Positions 5,801 to 37,300 of a stretch of 64,000 bases of DNA are shown piece by piece; position 1 is the first letter of the stretch, and every line of letters starts with the position of its first letter. The translations under genes and the position numbers were made by a program. The stretch covers positions 131,001 through 195,000 of the forward strand of contig JAXDDX010000148.1 in assembly GCA_034670405.1 (NCBI GenBank), written 5' to 3'. Under the pieces are notes generated by a model that was not told the DNA's origin, ran no database searches, and saw only the letters and a list, made by a program, of their open reading frames with translations. Source of the DNA: Hoplostethus atlanticus (lineage: Eukaryota; Chordata; Actinopteri; Trachichthyiformes; Trachichthyidae).

Positions 5801-7307
5801 TCAATCCATTTGAATTGATCTTTTCTCTCCATTATAATGATAAAAACCACAAGATCACATTTGGACTCACTTAGACTGAAGTATGGAGAGACCACACCCA
5901 ACTGATGCTCATGAGCAACATATGAATCTCTAACCTGCTCTTCCTCTTTAAGAAATCCTTGGCCAAGCCATGCCAAGCCATGCCAAGCCATGCCTCCCCG
6001 CTATCACATATTTGAGGCGGTGATTGAAAGCAGGCCAGTGTCAGCCGTTGACTCTACGATGAGAACGGCTTTTAAAAACATTCCTTTCATTGAACGCAGT
6101 ATTTAAACTTAGATCCACAGATGAACCTTGACACTTAAAGGGACAGTCCAAACAAACACCTTCACTTATTTTACTTATTTTGAAGCCATTTAGGATTTCC
6201 CAGTTACACATGAGCAGAAGAGTCGCTAACATTATACAGAACTCAGACTAAACTTCCACTCAACACTTGAAACTCGACCTGTGGCTTTCTGATCAGTTTG
6301 TGGATGTAGTGAGCAGGTTGTGATGTGGAGGCAGATCCTGGGTCAGGGTTATGCTCCATTTGCTCAGCGTTTGGATATCTGTCTGTCAGAGCGGCGGCTG
6401 GTCTTATGTAAAAAACACAGTTGTGATTTTTCCTGCTGTAGGTGTCCACTAACAAACTAGACGATTTCACCAGCTATTGCGAGCAATAAAAGTCCTTCAT
6501 GAGTGACAACTACAGCACTGACAGATTTTCCAGGCAGGACTATTAGACGTCTGGCGCCAAGAGAACAGAGATTTGGACCCAATGACCCCAAAGAGTTTCA
6601 AACTCCTTACAAGGAAAACAGAGAAAAACGATGAGCAGAAAGAGAGAGAAGCTAAACGAGAAGGGAGTGACAGAAGTCAGGCTGAGGAAAGAAAAGGAGA
6701 AGTGAAAGAGGTGAAGGAAGGAAGGAAGGAAGGAAAGGGGGGGGGGGTATGAGTCAGGGCTAACCTCGTGGAGGAGGGAGGGGGGAGAAAGGAGGAGAAG
6801 GAAAACAGTCACATTTTCCTGCCAAAGATATTAAGAATATGCGATTGGAAAAGTTCTTTCTAGAATAAGAAACTTTCCTTCTTTCATACTAAAAAACAAC
6901 AGGAAACAGGAAACAAGGTGAAGGGTGATGGAGAGAGAGAAACACAACATAACACACAACCCAATGAAAACCTGAACACTCACATTTTCCTGCCGACACT
7001 CATCCAGGGTGGCGTTGGTAGAGGCCAGACGCTGCAGGAGCTTCTGGATCTCCTCCTGCTGCCTGGTCTGGTTCTCCCGCAACTCCTCTACCATCTCCTC
7101 CAGGGCCGCCTTGTTCTTGGTCCAGACCACCTTGGCACCCTCCAGCTTCTCCGTGACCAGCTGCAGCTCCTCTCGGCATTGGCTGGAGCTCTTCATGTCC
7201 GGCGAGGTCGCCCAAACCACGATGATGATGAGGGAGATGACAGACCAGAGCGTCAGCAGGACGATGATGATGTTCTTCATGGTCTGGGAGGACTTGGAGC
7301 CTGTCAT
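2739..7307 (-). CDS. Tetherin/BST2-like type II coiled-coil membrane protein (gene, 4 exons found)
   Basis: Exons 7307-6984, 4340-4244, 3104-2951 and 2860-2739 join in phase to about 232 residues. In order: an 11-residue cytoplasmic tail; one membrane segment (about residues 12-34, NIIIVLLTLWSVISLIIIVV); a long Glu/Gln/Leu-rich coiled coil; five N-glycosylation sequons (NQT, NAT, NVS, NLT, NLT); five ectodomain cysteines; and a C-terminal small-residue stretch (AASPHAS) followed by a hydrophobic run (IPALLLLLCTGLHLL), as in a GPI-attachment signal. A membrane segment at one end and a GPI signal at the other, with glycosylated, cysteine-linked coiled coil between, is the unusual topology of BST2/tetherin, which holds budding enveloped virions to the cell surface. 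The last exon ends at a good donor (CCT|GTGAGT), so a final short exon with the stop is missing. A GTGAAACT at 7416-7423 resembles half an ISRE. Alternative: another short PLVAP-like type II protein. Confidence 0.7.
2951..3104 (-). CDS. Tetherin-like exon 3: membrane-distal coiled coil
   Basis: Acceptor CTGATCCAG and donor CAGCT|GTGAGT. It encodes one NLT sequon and two cysteines (QSCFSL, KACQSS) in an Ala/Gln/Lys-rich helix. Phase matches both neighbours. Confidence 0.7.
3130..4243. other. Intron 2 of the tetherin-like gene, with a SINE tail
   Basis: No exon seen. At about 3865-3915, GTTGCTCTGGATGACAGCGTC followed by AGCTAAATGCCTG is a diverged teleost SINE tail. Confidence 0.5.
4244..4340 (-). 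CDS. Tetherin-like exon 2: coiled coil with two sequons
   Basis: Acceptor TTCTGCAG and donor CACCAAG|GTAGGA. It encodes VVLRGNVSLLDQRIETLRDV and a following EANLT segment in phase with exon 1. Confidence 0.7.
4791..5146. repeat. 87-bp minisatellite, four full units
   Basis: Units start at 4791, 4878, 4965 and 5052 and are nearly identical. Because 87 is a multiple of three, several frames stay open on both strands, which explains the repetitive open frames here. It lies in intron 1 of the tetherin-like gene. Confidence 0.93.
5690..5910. repeat. Dispersed repeat, copy 1 of a local family
   Basis: The run TTGGTCAGTGTGATGAAG ... TCACCAAACTA ... CCTGATGCTGCCTGATGG ... TCTCCATTATAATGATAAAAA ... 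TTTGGACTCACTTAGA recurs at 23370-23590 in the same order and orientation, and in inverted form at about 33570-33720. No open frame or terminal repeat identified. Confidence 0.65.
6984..7307 (-). CDS. Tetherin-like exon 1: tail, membrane segment, first coiled coil
   Basis: 108 codons from the ATG at 7307. The frame stays open past the exon, but AAAT|GTGAGTGTT at 6984/6983 is a strong donor in phase 0. The exon holds the N-terminal anchor, two cysteines (SSQCREE, DECRQEN) and two sequons. A single exon carrying tail, membrane segment and much of the coiled coil matches mammalian BST2 gene structure. Confidence 0.72.
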
Positions 7308-7637
7308 GGCTGACGAGGAGGAGGAGGTGGTGGTGGTGACTGTCAGTGTGGTGAGGATGAGGATGGCGGAGGGGATGTGAATCTGTCAGGCCAGGTGGAT
7401 GTGTAGCTCCTCTCAGTGAAACTCTAAAAGTGGAATGCAGTTAGGACTGGGCTTTCCCCAGCAACTTCAGATGGGCAGGGAAGGGGGCGTGGCCTCCTCA
7501 ATGGGTGACATTAGGACAGCAAACCTTAGCTCCACCCTCTCCTCCTCCTCCTCCCCTCCCCCTCCATGTCGGTGTTATGGTGCCTGGAGAAATCACAACA
7601 TCAGATGAAGGCCAACACTGTTCCCATAAACACGAAT

Positions 7638-8622: not shown

Positions 8623-9235
8623 TTTACAGTTTTTCTCAGTCGCTTTGGTACATTTCTCAGATCAGAATTTAAATTCTCAAAACTCCTTGTTCAACCTCCA
8701 CATCATCTAGTCACTTGTTCAACCTCCACATCATCTAGTCACTTGTTCACATCATCAAAGCAGCTTCTCTTCTCTTTTCTTTTCTTTTGAACAAATTACA
8801 AATGCTTTGGCTCATTCATGCAAATGATTATGTAAAACTGTCTGCTGTTTCCTACATTATCAATAGTTTCTGTCATGTTGATCAAAATGTATTATATTGG
8901 TTCTCTGTTGAGTAGTCTCACCCCCCAGAACATCTAGGCACTAGTTCATTGCATAAGTCATTACATGCAAAATGGTTGAACCAGGTGTCATAATCTGTCA
9001 AGAATATTTTATCTACATTTCTATTAGACGTTTTTTGTAAATGTGTCCTGAATTGATGAATCTTGACTTTCACTCCAGCTTTTCTCAGTTGATTTGGCTC
9101 AATTCTCCAATGACAGTTGAAGTCGTCAAAACAAAATGTGTCATTTTGTTTCTTGTGCACAACAGAAAGAGCATTTGAACACAATGTCTTGAGTAAAGGA
9201 CAAATTGGCTTCCTACCAAAGCAACTACTGATCAT
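8623..9235. mobile_element. Fragment of a DNA transposon with TACAGTTTTTCTC-type end
   Basis: TTACAGTTTTTCTCAGTCGC at about 8623 resembles the terminus of the complete TA-flanked element at 53211-54563. A related TTTTCTCAGTTGATTTGGCTC lies near 9080. A 28-bp direct duplication (GTTCAACCTCCACATCATC...) is at about 8690-8745. No matching far end, so the copy is broken or rearranged. Confidence 0.4.
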
Positions 9236-9563
9236 GTTTACACCCTACACACCCTAATTAACCATCACGTACACCAAAAAAACAAGGGGAAGATTTTTGC
9301 ATGTTTTATTGATTTAAAAAAAGCTTTTGATTCTATTTGGCAAGAGGGATTATATTATAAAATTCTCCAAAGCGGTATAGGGGATAAAGTTTATGACATA
9401 ATAAAGTCAATGTATATCAGTAATACCTGTGGAGTAAAAATTGGCAATAAAAGTACAGAATTCTTCACTCAAAGGAAAGGAGTGTTTCAGGGAAACAGCT
9501 TGTCACCAACTCTCTTTAATATCTACATAAATTAATTAGCAGTACAGTTGGAACAAGCTGCAA

Positions 9564-9896
9564 CCCCTGGACTTACCGTACACAATAAGGAGGTCAAACT
9601 CCTGCTGTACGCAGACGACCCTGGACTTACCCTACACAATAAGGAGGTCAAACTCCTGCTGTACGCAGACGACCCTGGGCTAACCGTACACAATAAGGAG
9701 GTCAAACTCCTGCTGTACGCAGACGACCCTGGACTTACTCTACACAATAAGGAGGTCAAACTCCTGCTGTACGCAGACGACCCTGGGCTAACCGTACACA
9801 ATAAGGAGGTCAAACTCCTGCTGTACGCAGACGACCCTGGGCTAACCGTACACAATAAGGAGGTCAAACTCCTGCTGTACCCAGATGACCCTAGAC
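9564..9896 (+). repeat. 54-bp tandem array of the RT YADD segment, left half (6 units)
   Basis: Each 54-bp unit is exactly 18 codons and encodes PGLT(V/L)HNKEVKLLLYADD, the reverse transcriptase catalytic motif C and the residues before it. The unit repeats six times without breaking frame; the last unit has a variant P for A (YPDD). Confidence 0.92.
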
Positions 9897-11291
9897 CCGC
9901 GCTACTCAACACGCGGCCCGCGGGCCGCATGCGGCCCGAGGTTAATATTATTGCGGCCCTTGGTTGAATTTTTATTGTCATAGCAACTACCAATAAAAAT
10001 ATAATATTCTCATTTCAATGAACACAAACCATTTCTAAACTAAATTCTTAATGACCACAAGATGGCGATCGTGCATACTGTGCTTATTTAGCAATCGTGG
10101 GATCAACAAAGAAGATAAACCAACACATGATCAGCGACAAAAACGCTCGGCGCTGGCACTGCCATTCATTTCCTATTTGGCAAGCGTTGCCATCGATTCT
10201 AGCGTCGCTGCCGCCGTCGGTATTGTGCACCTGGGCACAGACGCTGGGAGAGTCCCTGGGGCTGCGCTCAAAGTTCAACTATATTCAACTTTGACATTCG
10301 CGACGCTGATCTCTGCGACTCGCAACCAATCACAGCACAGTTTGATATCATAACCGCGAAATTAAAAAAAAACAATGGAGGAGAAACTTGTTTTATGTGT
10401 GTCGGAGCATCCCGAGTTATACAACATGACGCTTAAATCATACCACGATCTGACTAAAAAGTCTGGCATGGAATGATGTCGGTTTACAGACGGGACTACC
10501 AGGTTGGTTGACAGCTTAGTACAGGTTTGTATATGCAGCCAGTCTATATTCACTTCTATGGCTGTGCTAGTATGATCATTGGCGGTGTGGTTAGCTACGG
10601 CTGATGCGGGCTGTTGTCCGAAATTTAACTCCACTCTATTCTTTCCTGAATGCTGTCATTTTAAAAACTCGACAGTGTGAAAGTAATGAATGTAATGTAA
10701 TTCTCCTGACGCTGATCATGTGAAGGGGTTGCGCTCAACCTGGTGTTGACGCCGACGCTTTGCATGGATCATGTGAACGCCCCAACTGTGCAGGAAGTCT
10801 AGCCTAGCCTACTCTCAAGTCATGGCAAAACCGGCAAAACGTAACATTTCTGATGAACACAGGGTATTTCAAAAAACATGGGAGGAAGAATTCACTTTTG
10901 TTGAGGTAAATAACAAACCAATGTGCCTTCTTTGCCAGAGAACAATAGCAGGACCAAAACGGGCAAACGTTCACATCACCATGATATCTATCACGGTGAC
11001 TTGGAATTACATATCCATCCGGGGGTAATTTGATATACTCAGACCTGATTTCAATTTAATATGCCTATATTTATTTTATTAAACATTCTTGTGATTTATT
11101 GCAACAGCAATCTACACTTTTACATTTAGTGAATAAAGCCTACTTATTGTCATTTAATCATTTGATATCCATGTGGCTTGAAATAACACTACAAAATAGT
11201 TTTATATGACCAAAAAATTTGTGTTGAGGCCCTTTGACACAGCTGTATCTTGCTGTGTGGCCCTTGAGCTATGTAAAGTTGAGTAGCCCTG
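9897..11291 (+). mobile_element. hAT DNA transposon remnant (ZBED/GTF2IRD2-type), 1395 bp
   Basis: Ends CCGCGCTACTCAAC and GTTGAGTAGCCCTG are imperfect terminal inverted repeats. An exact 8-bp duplication CCCTAGAC flanks it (9889-9896 and 11292-11299). The 5' end has the GCGGCCCGCGGGCCGCATGCGGCCC palindromic context, and an internal plus-strand frame encodes a BED-finger start. TSD length and termini are diagnostic of the hAT superfamily. The transposase is almost wholly missing, so the copy is non-autonomous. Confidence 0.88.
10822..11028 (+). pseudogene. Truncated BED zinc-finger N-terminus of a hAT transposase
   Basis: The frame begins MAKPAKRNISDEHRVFQKTW and continues EFTFVEVNNKPMCLLCQRT. 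The pattern Phe-x-x-x-W, then a Cys-x-x-Cys knuckle, matches the N-terminus of ZBED5/GTF2IRD2-like transposases. It stops after about 68 residues with no His pair or DDE catalytic core, so it cannot transpose. Confidence 0.7.
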
Positions 11292-11299
11292 CCCTAGAC

Positions 11300-11640
11300 T
11301 AACCCTACACAATAAGGAGGTCAAACTGCTGCTGTACGCAGACGACCCTAGACTAACCCTACACAATAAGGAGGTCAAACTCCTGCTGTACCCAGATGAC
11401 CCTAGACTAACCCTACACAATAAGGAGGTCAAACTCCTGCTGTACGCAGACGACCCTGGACTAACCCTACACAATAAGGAGGTAAAACTCCTGCTGTACG
11501 CAGACGACCCTGGATTAACCCTACACAATAAGGAGGTCAAACTCCTGCTGTATGGAGACAACCCTGGGCTAACCCTACACAATAAGGAGGTCAAACTCCT
11601 GCTGTATGCAGATGACCCTGGACTAACCCTACACAATACA
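11300..11640 (+). repeat. 54-bp tandem array of the RT YADD segment, right half (6 units)
   Basis: Six further units of the same 18-codon repeat continue directly after the hAT target duplication. Variants include YPDD, YGDN and YADD. Before the hAT insertion the array had about twelve units. Confidence 0.9.
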
Positions 11641-12091
11641 CAACATCTAGACCTCCTGGAGGAGTACTGTCAGAACTGGGCCCTGACAGTCAACTTTCAA
11701 AAATGTAAAATAATGATCTTCCAAAAGAAGCCCAGATCTCAGGAAACCAAGTATGCATTCACTCTAGGAATCACCGCCCTAGAGCACACCCTGTTCTATG
11801 ACTACCTGGGGCTCAAAATCAGTGCCTCAGGTAACTTTGGTCTGGCAGTGAACACACTAGAAGAAAAATCCTGTTTATGCAATCAGGAGAAAATTCCACA
11901 AAATTCACATACCAATCAGAATCAGCCCTTTATGGAAGTGAAGTATGGGGTCCACTCAGTCAGCATGACTACACTAGATGGGACAAGCATCCCATAGAGG
12001 CCCTGCATGCAGAATTCTATAGAACCATTTTAAACATTGATTGCTGTTACTATTGTTATTATTGATGATCCTCTGCTGATCAATACTAACG

Positions 12092-13980: not shown

Positions 13981-14014
13981 ATGGAGTCACTGCTCATCCT
14001 GTTGATCCTGACTG
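13981..14014 (+). CDS. V-domain gene exon 1 (leader)
   Basis: ATG through ACT G|GTGAGT, phase 1, as in Ig and TCR leader exons. Confidence 0.75.
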
Positions 14015-14741
14015 GTGAGTCTGTTTTTCATTCCTAATGTTCATATTTAGTGTTGCAGGATGAACCTTTCAACACATGTAAATATACAACTTATATATTT
14101 AGTATCTGGACAGAAACAGGATGTTTTAACACTTTAACTTAAAGGTTAAAGTGCAGCTTGTCATCTTTAATTTAAAGGCAGTTTCAAAATCCCTTTGAGT
14201 GAAACCCGACTGACAGAACGGATCAAACCATCAGGGGATGTGGATCTGAACCAGAAACTGTTTGGGTTCCACTCTGATGGTTTGCTGCTGTAAGAGACGA
14301 GGCCTTTATCTTCTGACAGCCGTTCATCCAACCAGCAACACGAGAGGTGTTGGTCTGGACGGCTCGCGGACCAGAGGTCATGTTGTTGTCGTTGTGTTGT
14401 GTTGTGCAGGTCTGGGGTCGGACCGGCGCGTCGCTACGCTGCCAACCAACACTTTAAAGGTGAAAGTTGGAGATGCTGCCACCCTGCAATGCCCCCTGCT
14501 GGCCAGATCCAGCATGGCCACGGTGAGCTGGTACCGGCAGACGGCGGGGAAGGGTCCTCTTCTGGTCCTCAGCTACCGTCTGACCAACACCTCCGCCGTG
14601 ACCTACGGCCCCGGCGTCCATCCCGACAAATTCACCACCGGGGTCGACGGGTCGCTGCTGATTCATGGCTCCGAGGAAAGCGACTCTGCGGTGTATTACT
14701 GTGGACTCTCCAAATACCAGAACCAAATGCCACGCCACTGA
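13981..14741 (+). CDS. VPREB-like secreted single immunoglobulin V-domain protein
   Basis: Two exons (13981-14014 and 14410-14741) give 121 residues: leader MESLLILLILTGLGS, then one V-set domain with LKVKVGDAATLQC, VSWYRQTAGKGP and EESDSAVYYC, i.e. both disulphide cysteines, the core Trp and the Asp-x-Ala-x-Tyr-x-Cys motif. After YYC only twelve residues follow (GLSKYQNQMPRH) before TGA. There is no FGxG J motif, no splice donor and no CACAGTG/ACAAAAACC recombination signal, so this is a stand-alone germline V domain, not a rearranging V segment. Poly(A) signal AATAAA near 14930. VPREB chains have this form and pair with a J-C chain; such a gene lies next door in the same direction. V type (light chain or TCR-like) is uncertain. 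Confidence 0.75.
14410..14741 (+). CDS. V-domain gene exon 2 (V-set domain and stop)
   Basis: Acceptor GTTGTGCAG|GT in phase with the leader. It holds the whole V domain and an in-exon stop. Confidence 0.8.
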
Positions 14742-14814
14742 GACCACCGCCATCACGTCACGTGGAAGGAGACTGCCGCCATCGTCATTATTATCATGAT
14801 CAATATTATTATTG

Positions 14815-14866
14815 TTGTTATTATTATTATTATTGTCATCATCATCATCATCATCATCATTATATC
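14815..14866. repeat. (TTA)n/(ATC)n microsatellite in the V-gene 3' UTR
   Basis: ATTATT then ATCATC tract between the stop codon and the poly(A) signal. Confidence 0.85.
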
Positions 14867-15044
14867 AGCTGACTGGGACAGAGGATTTTACAGCTTCAAT
14901 ACTTTGAAATGATATAAATATATAGGGAAATAAAACGTTTGTACTTGTAAAGCTTAGGAAGTTTGTGATATGAAAATGGTCAAATTAAAGATTTTCAATA
15001 TCAACACAGAATATGGTCTATGAGTTTCAATCCAAAAGGACCAG

Positions 15045-15190
15045 GATCAGCTGGGGTCAGAGCTAACATGCTAGCAGACAGAAGGTCACAGGTTCGATTC
15101 CCTCTGGACAGACCGTCAGCTATATGTCTGAAGGACATTCTGTGAATGAGCAGAGCCAGGGCATCTCTGAGGGATTCTGGGAAATAAACT
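15045..15190 (+). mobile_element. SINE-like fragment with a tRNA B box
   Basis: AGGTTCGATTCCCTCTGG matches the pol III B box GGTTCGANTCC and follows AGCTAACATGCTAGCAGACAGAAGG. It is not a tRNA gene: there is no cloverleaf around it. Confidence 0.4.
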
Positions 15191-15751
15191 GTCTATCTGT
15201 TGTTTTTTGTGATGATTACATTCTCGTTCATATTGTGTGAGCAAAGTTTTTACCCTCACATAAAACTTTAACTGACATCCCAGCGATGGATTTTAGGTGC
15301 CACAACTTCTAAATATCTAATTTTGGAACAAAACTTTTATTCTCTGAGCTTCCAGAATTCTCTTTACCAGTCAGAGAATAACAAGACCAGGCGCCGCAGA
15401 AGAGAGTACACCTGGTACAGGGGAAACACAAACCAACCGTCCTTTCCTGTTGCTTTTCCTGTTTTTCTTGCCTCCACCAACCGACCGGCAGATCCACCAA
15501 CCGTCGTCTGAGTTTGGATCCCTGCAGAGAAACCGTCGCCTCTCCTCTGGGAGCCGGTGACGTTCTACTAGATGGTTTTCATATTTCTGTTGTGCAGAAA
15601 CGTCCTGCTGTCACTTTGTCATTTCAACTGCAGAACTACAGAAAATCACTGGGTTGAGAGTGGATGCATACTTTTGTTTACCACTGCTATTAGATACACT
15701 GCTCAGCGTTGGGAAAGAGGAAGTAGGGAGGAGCAGCTTCCTGTCAGCGGC

Positions 15752-15789
15752 ATGGAAGCAGGACTGGCCTTCATCGTCCTGCTGCTGGG
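15752..15789 (+). CDS. IGLL-like exon 1 (leader)
   Basis: Twelve codons plus GG before GTGAGA. The frame is open upstream to 15572, but this ATG gives a clean leader. Confidence 0.6.
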
Positions 15790-17765
15790 GTGAGATTCAC
15801 TATCTACTGTCTAATGTATTGATAATGTATTGATATGTATAGTTACTGTCTATATAGATGACATGTATAGTTACTGACTATATAGATGACATGTATAGTT
15901 ACTGACTATATAGATGATGTATAGTTACTGACTATATAGATGATGTATAGTTACTGACTATATAGATGATGTATAGTTACTGTCTATATAGATGATGTAT
16001 AGTTACTGACTATATAGATGACATGTATAGTTACTGACTATATAGATGATGTATAGTTACTGACTATATAGATGACATGTATAGTTACTGTCTATATAGA
16101 TGATGTATAGTTACTGACTATATAGATGACATGTATAGTTACTGACTATATAGATGATGTATAGTTACTGACTATATAGATGACATGTATAGTTACTGTC
16201 TATATAGATGATGTATAGTTACTGACTATATAGATGATGTATAGTTACTGACTATATAGATGACATGTATAGTTACTGACTATAGATGACATGTATAGTT
16301 ACTGACTATATAGATGATGTATAGTTACTGACTATATAGATGATGTATAGTTACTGACTATATAGATGACATGTATAGTTACTGACTATATAGATGATGT
16401 ATAGTTACTGACTATATAGATGACATGTATAGTTACTGACTATAGATGACATGTATAGTTACTGACTATATAGATGATATATAGTTACTGACTATATAGA
16501 TGACATGTATAGTTACTGACTATATGTTGGTCAGTTGTCCTGCCCTGTGTCAGTAGTACTGTCCTGTCCTCAGGTCCGTCCTCGTCCGTCAGTCTGTGAT
16601 GGACATGGTCTTCAGCGGTGGAACATTGCTGCTTGTCGACGGTGTGGAATCAGTTTCTATTTTCAATATCATGTTCTTTACTGTGTTTTATTCCAATAAA
16701 TCTATAAAGACCAGAACTGAGAAATTAGAAGCTCTAAATACAACAGACTGAACTTCAATGAGAACACAGAAAATAAAGATTTATAACTTTCTGCATAACT
16801 GCAGTAAAATTGCTCAATTGCACTGCAAAGTGTATGACTGATTAATTATTGCTTCTTAGTGGACAACCTAATTATTGTGTTCATCAAACTATTGATCAAC
16901 TATTGTCTTTATTGGTTTCATTGTTTTTTTGTAATGTGTGTTTTATTCCCTGGACTGCAAAGAATGTTGAGTTAATGGAGTCGACAGAAATGACAAAAAC
17001 CATGAGAACAATTCCTGCTTTCATGTAAAGCGACAGATCTTCTCACATCAGATGCAGAGAGACTCCACTGAGGTCACAAGTAGAATAAAATTCACTTCCT
17101 AGATCACCAACATTACAAGCAGCCAATACTAAGGAGGTCAGAGGTCACAGTGTCCTTTTCCCCATGACTAGAGAATGATCATGTAAAAGTGCTGGTAGAA
17201 GAAATAGAATAAGAGCTGAGGAGAAACACAGAAAGTTTTATTTTCGTTCCATCTTTTCTTATGTTGGTGACTTGTGTGGTTTGGTTGAAATACTTCAACT
17301 GAAATGTTACTTTTTTTCAAGATTGTGTTTGTATTCTGGTCATGGACCAAATTCACTTCTGTTTGATCCAGATCTTCTCACATGAGATACTTTCTTCATC
17401 CCATTTTATTTTTGTGACTTTCGTCTGCAGGTTCGATTCCCTCCGGTCCGTCAGTGCAGATCTTCTCCTCCTTCCCGGCCAGTCAGGATCCAGGAGCCGC
17501 CCGCATCCTGGTGTGCATCCTCAGCGGTCTAAACACAACCCTCCTGGACGTCGTCTGGTGGGTCAATGATGCGGTGGTGACGCCAGTGGAGGCAGATGTG
17601 TGGACGGTGCCGGACCTCGGCGGGGCCTACAGCACCATCTCTGTCTGGGAGGTCTCTGCAGAGGACTGGAGCTCCTCCACTACCTACTGGTGTGGAACCG
17701 TCCAGGAGGGGAAAGTTTACAGGCAGAAGTCAGACGCCTCTCTCTGCGGGGGGGCTGGCTTGTGA
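15752..17765 (+). CDS. IGLL/lambda5-like chain: leader, germline J, light-chain-type C1 domain
   Basis: Exons 15752-15789, 16574-16641 and 17431-17765 join in phase to 146 residues. Exon 1 is a leader (MEAGLAFIVLLLG). Exon 2 ends VFSGGTLLLVD, like the light-chain J strand VFGGGTKLTVL, and splices after one extra base as J segments do. Exon 3 opens GPSVQIFSSFPAS (compare PSVTLFPPSS of lambda C domains), then has ILVCILSG, VVWWVND, STISVWEVSAEDW and TYWCGTV, and a final SLC where light chains keep the cysteine that bonds to the heavy chain. No membrane segment. With no V segment and J joined in the germline, this is the design of lambda5/IGLL1. Ets-type AGGAAGT sites sit within 40 bp upstream. 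The last residues and stop come from a SINE. Alternatives: a decayed germline-joined light chain or another C1 immune protein. Confidence 0.68.
15815..16525. repeat. 26-28-bp minisatellite in intron 1 of the IGLL-like gene
   Basis: About 26 units of ATGTATAGTTACTGACTATA with linker TAGATG or TAGATGAC; the two linker variants alternate irregularly. Confidence 0.95.
16574..16641 (+). CDS. IGLL-like exon 2 (J-like segment)
   Basis: Acceptor CTGTCCTCAG and donor GACG|GTGTGG. 68 bases = 1 + 22 codons + 1, exactly the phases needed by exons 1 and 3. It encodes SVLVRQSVMDMVFSGGTLLL then VD. The J Phe-Gly-x-Gly is changed to Phe-Ser-Gly-Gly. Confidence 0.6.
17431..17765 (+). CDS. IGLL-like exon 3 (immunoglobulin C1 domain)
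   Basis: Acceptor TCGTCTGCAG. Ig C1 domain of about 100 residues with both core cysteines and the core tryptophan, an NTT sequon, a C-terminal Cys, then GGAGL and TGA. Confidence 0.82.

Positions 17766-20662: not shown

Positions 20663-37300
<16,638 letters not shown>

Follow-up and report, generated by a model that had tools for sequence, protein, structure and literature searches.

A sid1 V gene beside a J-C gene in Hoplostethus atlanticus as a candidate surrogate light chain

Two adjacent genes, one V and one J-C

The window analyzed here, a 64,000-nucleotide stretch of Hoplostethus atlanticus DNA, carries two immunoglobulin-like genes in the same orientation (+), about 1 kb apart, with the J-C gene downstream of the V gene. 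A first-pass annotation had described the upstream gene as a leader and V domain that end without a J motif, donor or recombination signal sequence (RSS), and the downstream gene as a leader, J-like strand and C1 domain without a V. Both descriptions are borne out, and the junctions and coordinates given there (14014/14410, 15789/16574 and 16641/17431) are correct, with open, phase-matched frames. The domain assignments hold as well: the V protein matches Pfam V-set at 1.3e-12, and the J-C protein matches C1-set at 3.8e-7 for a query whose J-C junction contained a surplus G.

Exon 1 of the V gene (13981-14014, +) encodes the signal peptide MESLLILLILTG- in an open frame that runs to a GTGAGT donor, and exon 2 (14410-14741, +) encodes a V-set domain that reaches a stop 11 residues past YYCG, with no G strand, RSS or membrane part. 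The junction between them is in phase 1 on both sides. The product is a protein of 121 aa, a leader followed by the V-set domain. Checked by eye, the V exon is stop-terminated and offers no usable donor; in the AlphaFold model of the protein the F strand is the last strand, with none after it. A protein search found 16 homologues at E<=0.001 among 29 candidates, and because these share 39-80% identity with it in other fish, the gene stands above chance. The closest is Diretmus argenteus sid1 (80% identical, 9.0e-55); over its first 20 residues the spliced product is identical to Diretmus sid1 (P0007). Six of the 16 carry the name secreted immunoglobulin domain 1 (sid1), and in 14 of the 16 the tail after YYCG is 6-20 residues long. 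Judged by these homologues, the V gene at 13981-14741 is sid1.

The J-C gene begins with a start codon at 15752 in exon 1 (15752-15789, +), which encodes the signal peptide MEAGLAFIVLLL- and ends at a GTGAGA donor; the start of Centroberyx gerrardi P0002, MEAGLAFILLLG, is a near-copy of the start of this exon. Exon 2 (16574-16641, +) encodes the J-like strand VFSGGTLLLVD and has no RSS upstream. Exon 3 (17431-17765, +) encodes a C1 domain and, close to the C terminus, a cysteine; a stop follows, with no membrane part. The two junctions are open and phase-matched (15789/16574 in phase 2, 16641/17431 in phase 1), and the resulting 146-aa product consists of the leader, the J-like strand and a single C1 domain that ends ...SLCGGAGL. 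The donor 3' of the J-like exon is weak (GACG/GTGTGG), and a Centroberyx protein aligns across the same junction. The A1 profile recovers the J-like exon at 13.9 bits (E 0.0036), which is also the single occurrence of the pattern F[GS]xGTx[LIV]x[VI] in six frames of the window, and a whole-genome C1-set search recovers exon 3 at G000:C148:148454-148705 (E 8.5e-5). The first intron is, by eye, largely a short tandem repeat between 15800 and 16520, with a unit of roughly 25 bases.

Searching with the J-C protein gave six homologues among 55 candidates, and because these are 47-61% identical to it in other fish, this gene too stands above chance. Centroberyx supplies a close relative. A profile built from the six homologues and the window C exon found at least 39 homologues among 8000 scored candidates, including Esox 'Si:ch211-1a19.2' (P0055, 2.8e-26) and Acanthopagrus 'immunoglobulin lambda-like polypeptide 1'. 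The Esox protein and the window C domain group at 97/96 in a C-domain tree. Among 40 aligned J-C rows, 28 carry the J motif and 38 the cysteine of the C-terminal tail. On this homology, the J-C gene at 15752-17765 is a member of the si:ch211-1a19.2 family. The two genes lack complementary parts: sid1 has a V domain but no J strand, and its neighbor has a J-like strand but no V domain.

In many J-C relatives (P0001, P0003, P0005, P0006 and others) the J strand and the C domain are separated by an acidic insert, often rich in histidine, that is missing from the Hoplostethus window, Centroberyx and pike. It could correspond in fish to the charged unique regions that mammalian surrogate chains carry. 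A charge complementarity between an acidic J-C linker and a basic sid1 tail was considered and is borne out on the linker side only: the linker was delimited in 25 of 40 rows (three others have the J motif but an undelimited linker, and 12 lack the motif) and has a net negative charge in 24 of them, and the sid1 tail is positive in only 9 of 18 rows, zero in three and negative in six. Counts of EBF, octamer and E-box sites upstream of sid1 and the J-C gene gave nothing convincing.

Downstream of the pair, in the opposite orientation, lies a camk4 exon (22076-22342, -), whose top PDB matches are calcium/calmodulin-dependent kinase IV (E 2.2e-20). In one literature search, no publication combined camk4 with two of sid1, zebrafish and 'immunoglobulin lambda-like'. 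On the other side of sid1, an open frame at 6831-7385 (-) encodes a short protein that has a hydrophobic segment and a stretch resembling a coiled coil; no Pfam family scores above cut-off for it, and it may be a neighbor gene such as si:ch211-1a19.3. A reverse transcriptase fragment (9197-9532, +; Pfam RVT_1, E 5.8e-15) is followed by tandem copies of a LLLYADDPGLT piece near 9536-9967 and 11287-11690, which together suggest a broken retroelement that was tandemly amplified.

Recombination signals, linkage and ancestry

We scored recombination signals as matches to CACAGTG plus ACAAAAACC at a spacing of 11-13 or 22-24, with a maximum of 16. In the 110 nt past the V cysteine of sid1 the best match is 9/16; the 95th percentile for random 110-nt pieces of the window is 11. 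In the same test all nine light-chain V segments from the same genome score 15-16/16 (eight at 16/16, one at 15/16), and two TCR gamma V segments reach 15/16. This V test took 10 of 13 profile matches, the window included, after three were dropped: a match that ran into the end of its locus, a short frame and a match within an MHC locus. Upstream of the J-like exon nothing scores higher than 11/16, and the CAC of that match lies at a distance of 64 nt. The controls were 11 J segments that the pattern picked out in seven light-chain loci; all of them reach 13-16/16 (ten at 16/16, one at 13/16), and their heptamers lie 6-10 nt from the scored end. Both genes of the pair are at background level and lack the RSS at V and J that define a conventional light chain. 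Elsewhere in the genome, contig C147 of G000 (709531-839118) carries light-chain-like C exons in an array of similar copies (at least 18 C1-set places); two stretches sampled from it, L009 and L010, contain V and J segments with strong recombination signals.

The absence of RSS at either gene, together with the weak donor after the J-like exon, is what one might expect of decaying, functionless remnants of a light-chain cluster. Against this, both frames are intact in the window, sid1 relatives occur in 16 records, J-C relatives extend from pike to many spiny-rayed fish, and linked copies are found in at least three other species. We regard decay as extremely improbable.

Conservation of the pair in other fish, which the first-pass annotation had proposed as a check, is found in Caranx, Spinachia and Centroberyx affinis. 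The two genes have consecutive tags in Caranx (INR49_005083 and 005084, both on a contig of size 52,741) and in Spinachia (AB9W97_016321 and 016320, both on a contig of size 19,262,566), a linkage read from tags in which gene orientation is not visible. In Centroberyx affinis a single gene model fuses sid1 and J-C, and an Antennarius J-C protein carries the label 'sid1 isoform'. The Menidia tags are non-consecutive, though both genes lie on a contig of the same size.

The sid1 profile scores 52.8 bits with a V gene of the lambda locus (contig C22) and 30.7 with a second V gene there, 16.6-35.2 with other light-chain V genes and 13.0-14.8 with TCR gamma V genes; the lambda identity of C22 and the TCR gamma identity of C198 both come from PDB matches. 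In a V tree of light-chain and TRGV genes (TRAV, TRBV and IGHV lying outside the comparison), ten sid1 rows cluster together (100/96), apart from TCR gamma V and beside the two C22 V genes, on a branch (88/81) that is not starred and at which the program warned of long branches meeting. The C-domain tree covers 22 genome places and 10 of the 40 J-C rows; the genome has at least 114 C1-set places, of which 41 were translated. Other than for C22 and C198, its MHC, IGH, tapasin and light-chain labels are presumed assignments from motifs. The ten J-C rows likewise cluster (97/96), on the Ig/TCR side, near the lambda C domain at a weak 81/67 with a long heavy-chain row in between, and the best C match of the J-C profile among the scanned loci is another light-chain locus, C4. 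Because of these profile scores and tree placements, we consider a lambda-type ancestor likely for the sid1 V domain and possible for the J-C gene.

In a PDB sequence search with the V protein, the best 60 of 7069 matches are antibody or TCR chains, with VpreB not singled out; the V profile matches 19 PDB chains, all antibody or TCR, and singles out neither VpreB nor lambda5. The J-C search is headed by heavy-chain constant regions, and lambda5 is not singled out there. A fold search with the V model puts VpreB chains at the top, nearly tied with others, and TCR V domains score close to VpreB. Matches of a model of the J-C homologue P0002 to MHC C1 folds were discarded as unreliable (AlphaFold pLDDT 56.9).

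These TCR scores bear on an alternative raised in the first-pass annotation, a pre-TCR-like pairing; here the pair would join TCR beta in thymocytes. The sid1 V domain contains WYRQ and DSAVYYC, which look TCR-like, and one homologue (P0011) bears a TRBV annotation. The alternative gains no support from our analysis, because neither predicted protein has a membrane part, the V domain clusters with lambda IGLV, away from TRGV (TRAV and TRBV being outside the comparison), and published expression falls in B-lineage clusters (PMC9365674, PMC11759298, in the passages on these genes). Even with the report of Ott et al. that BLAST of zebrafish sid1 against Eutheria retrieves mainly TCR chains (PMC9614664, passage on sid1), we judge a pre-TCR-like role very improbable.

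The pair in print and its possible function

A 2013 review, in its passage on the subject, gave a VpreB or lambda5 counterpart as unreported in fish (PMC3570791). The pair has since appeared in print in zebrafish and medaka papers, and these are the source of the adjacency and early B-cell expression drawn on below. Zebrafish sid1 and si:ch211-1a19.2 were proposed as counterparts of VPREB1 and IGLL1 and have been debated (passages in PMC9614664 and PMC9365674), and another paper treats zebrafish igic1s1 as a predicted IGLL1 homologue (PMC6365377, relevant passage). In the sections on these genes, Ott et al. (2022) report that the zebrafish genes are adjacent and oriented like VpreB1/IGLL1 of many eutherians, and they confine VpreB1, VpreB2 and IGLL1 to eutherians (PMC9614664). 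Rubin et al. (2022) describe both zebrafish genes in rag+ dntt+ B cells in which light chain was undetected (PMC9365674, passage on these cells). Medaka sid1 adjoins si:ch211-1a19.3 and, among the clusters shown in the relevant part of a 2025 paper, is expressed only in rag1-high B clusters (PMC11759298).

The first-pass annotation had read the genes as VPREB-like and IGLL/lambda5-like, and as possibly an unrecognized teleost surrogate chain. The reading itself is in keeping with the anatomy, the linkage elsewhere, the lambda-like V and the published early B expression. The word 'unrecognized' fails, because the zebrafish pair had already been proposed as VPREB1/IGLL1, noted as adjacent and argued over (passages in PMC9614664 and PMC9365674), and the medaka neighborhood is alike (PMC11759298).

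The Hoplostethus pair is a spiny-rayed-type version of sid1/si:ch211-1a19.2, a light-chain unit, probably of lambda type, made up of two invariant genes that lack recombination signals. Because the V and J-C genes are complementary and linked in several fish, a surrogate chain is more plausible than it would be from either gene alone, and we lean toward the view that the two genes together form an invariant light chain of lambda origin, divided in two, that acts as a surrogate light chain during early B-cell stages. Under this model, rag+ pre-B-like cells would make both proteins, and the J-like strand of the J-C chain would complete the sid1 V fold. The C1 domain would pair with the heavy chain's first constant domain, and the C-terminal cysteine would probably supply an interchain disulfide. 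With both chains in place, a heavy chain fresh from rearrangement could fold and undergo testing while the cell still lacks a true light chain. Our analysis shows the gene structure, its conservation, the complementary gaps, the lack of RSS and the lambda-like V; we infer the pairing of the two proteins, their pairing with heavy chain and the signaling; the surrogate function, also inferred, is disputed in print.

Ott et al. doubt a pre-B stage, place zebrafish sid1 in the VpreB3 branch with a remark on its length, and favor a VpreB3 identity and a VpreB3-like chaperone role (PMC9614664, passage on sid1). Sid1 would then be an ER chaperone of nascent heavy or light chains, with the J-C protein a partner or an unrelated leftover and no surface pre-B receptor. 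The short sid1 tail, in Hoplostethus as in most homologues, fits this account, which leaves unexplained why a neighboring J-C gene that encodes the missing strand and a C-terminal cysteine has been kept; moreover, chaperone and surrogate roles can coexist. We consider the chaperone account unlikely. Hydrophobic leaders on both genes and the lack of a membrane part would suit an immune protein of two soluble chains with no part in heavy-chain testing, one that might be secreted with or without IgM. Expression at a rag+ early B stage, of the zebrafish genes (PMC9365674) and of medaka sid1 (PMC11759298), speaks against it, and we rate it improbable.

Ray-finned fish and eutherians may each split a lambda-type light chain into separate V and J-C genes and use them to test heavy chains, a pre-B checkpoint either invented twice or ancestral in bony fish and lost from most tetrapods; we offer this only tentatively. 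The question of a fish pre-B receptor is an active one, with two 2022 papers disagreeing on zebrafish (PMC9614664, PMC9365674, passages on these genes), and the sid1/J-C pair names two genes for joint knockout.

Comparison with known systems

Among the closest parallels are zebrafish and medaka sid1 with si:ch211-1a19.2 or.3, whose names the homologues of the Hoplostethus pair share. The zebrafish genes are reported to be adjacent and in the same orientation, as in Hoplostethus (PMC9614664, relevant passage), and medaka sid1 lies beside si:ch211-1a19.3 (PMC11759298, relevant passage). Hoplostethus differs in being another species with a camk4 flank, and the likeness is drawn from names and papers rather than from zebrafish or medaka sequences.

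VPREB3 resembles sid1 in its single V domain and short tail, and we know of no obligatory J-C partner for mammalian VPREB3. The link rests on the placement of zebrafish sid1 by Ott et al. (PMC9614664, passage on sid1) rather than on an alignment of VpreB3 with Hoplostethus sid1. A PTCRA-type membrane segment is absent after the C1 domain in the window frame, which stops at 17765, right past C1. Sterlet IgL sigma, an atypical light chain with a suggested VpreB/lambda5-like role (PMC5985310, relevant passage), is similar by description rather than by sequence, and belongs to another isotype and another lineage.

The likeness to eutherian VPREB1 and IGLL1 (lambda5), the pair with which mammals vet new antibody heavy chains, is one of anatomy rather than demonstrated orthology. 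The long charged unique regions of VPREB1/IGLL1 are absent from the Hoplostethus proteins, in which the V tail is 11 aa and the J-C junction 7 aa, and the IGLL1 tail motif GPRC, as given in the relevant passage of Ott et al. (PMC9614664), is missing from the 146-aa J-C protein. In its parts the pair appears to work like VPREB/IGLL1: a V gene without a J strand stands beside a J-C gene without a V, in the same orientation, with no RSS and a lambda-like V. The strand complementarity is also of the VPREB1/IGLL1 type, with a V chain that lacks the G strand and a partner that carries a J-like strand as its putative donor.
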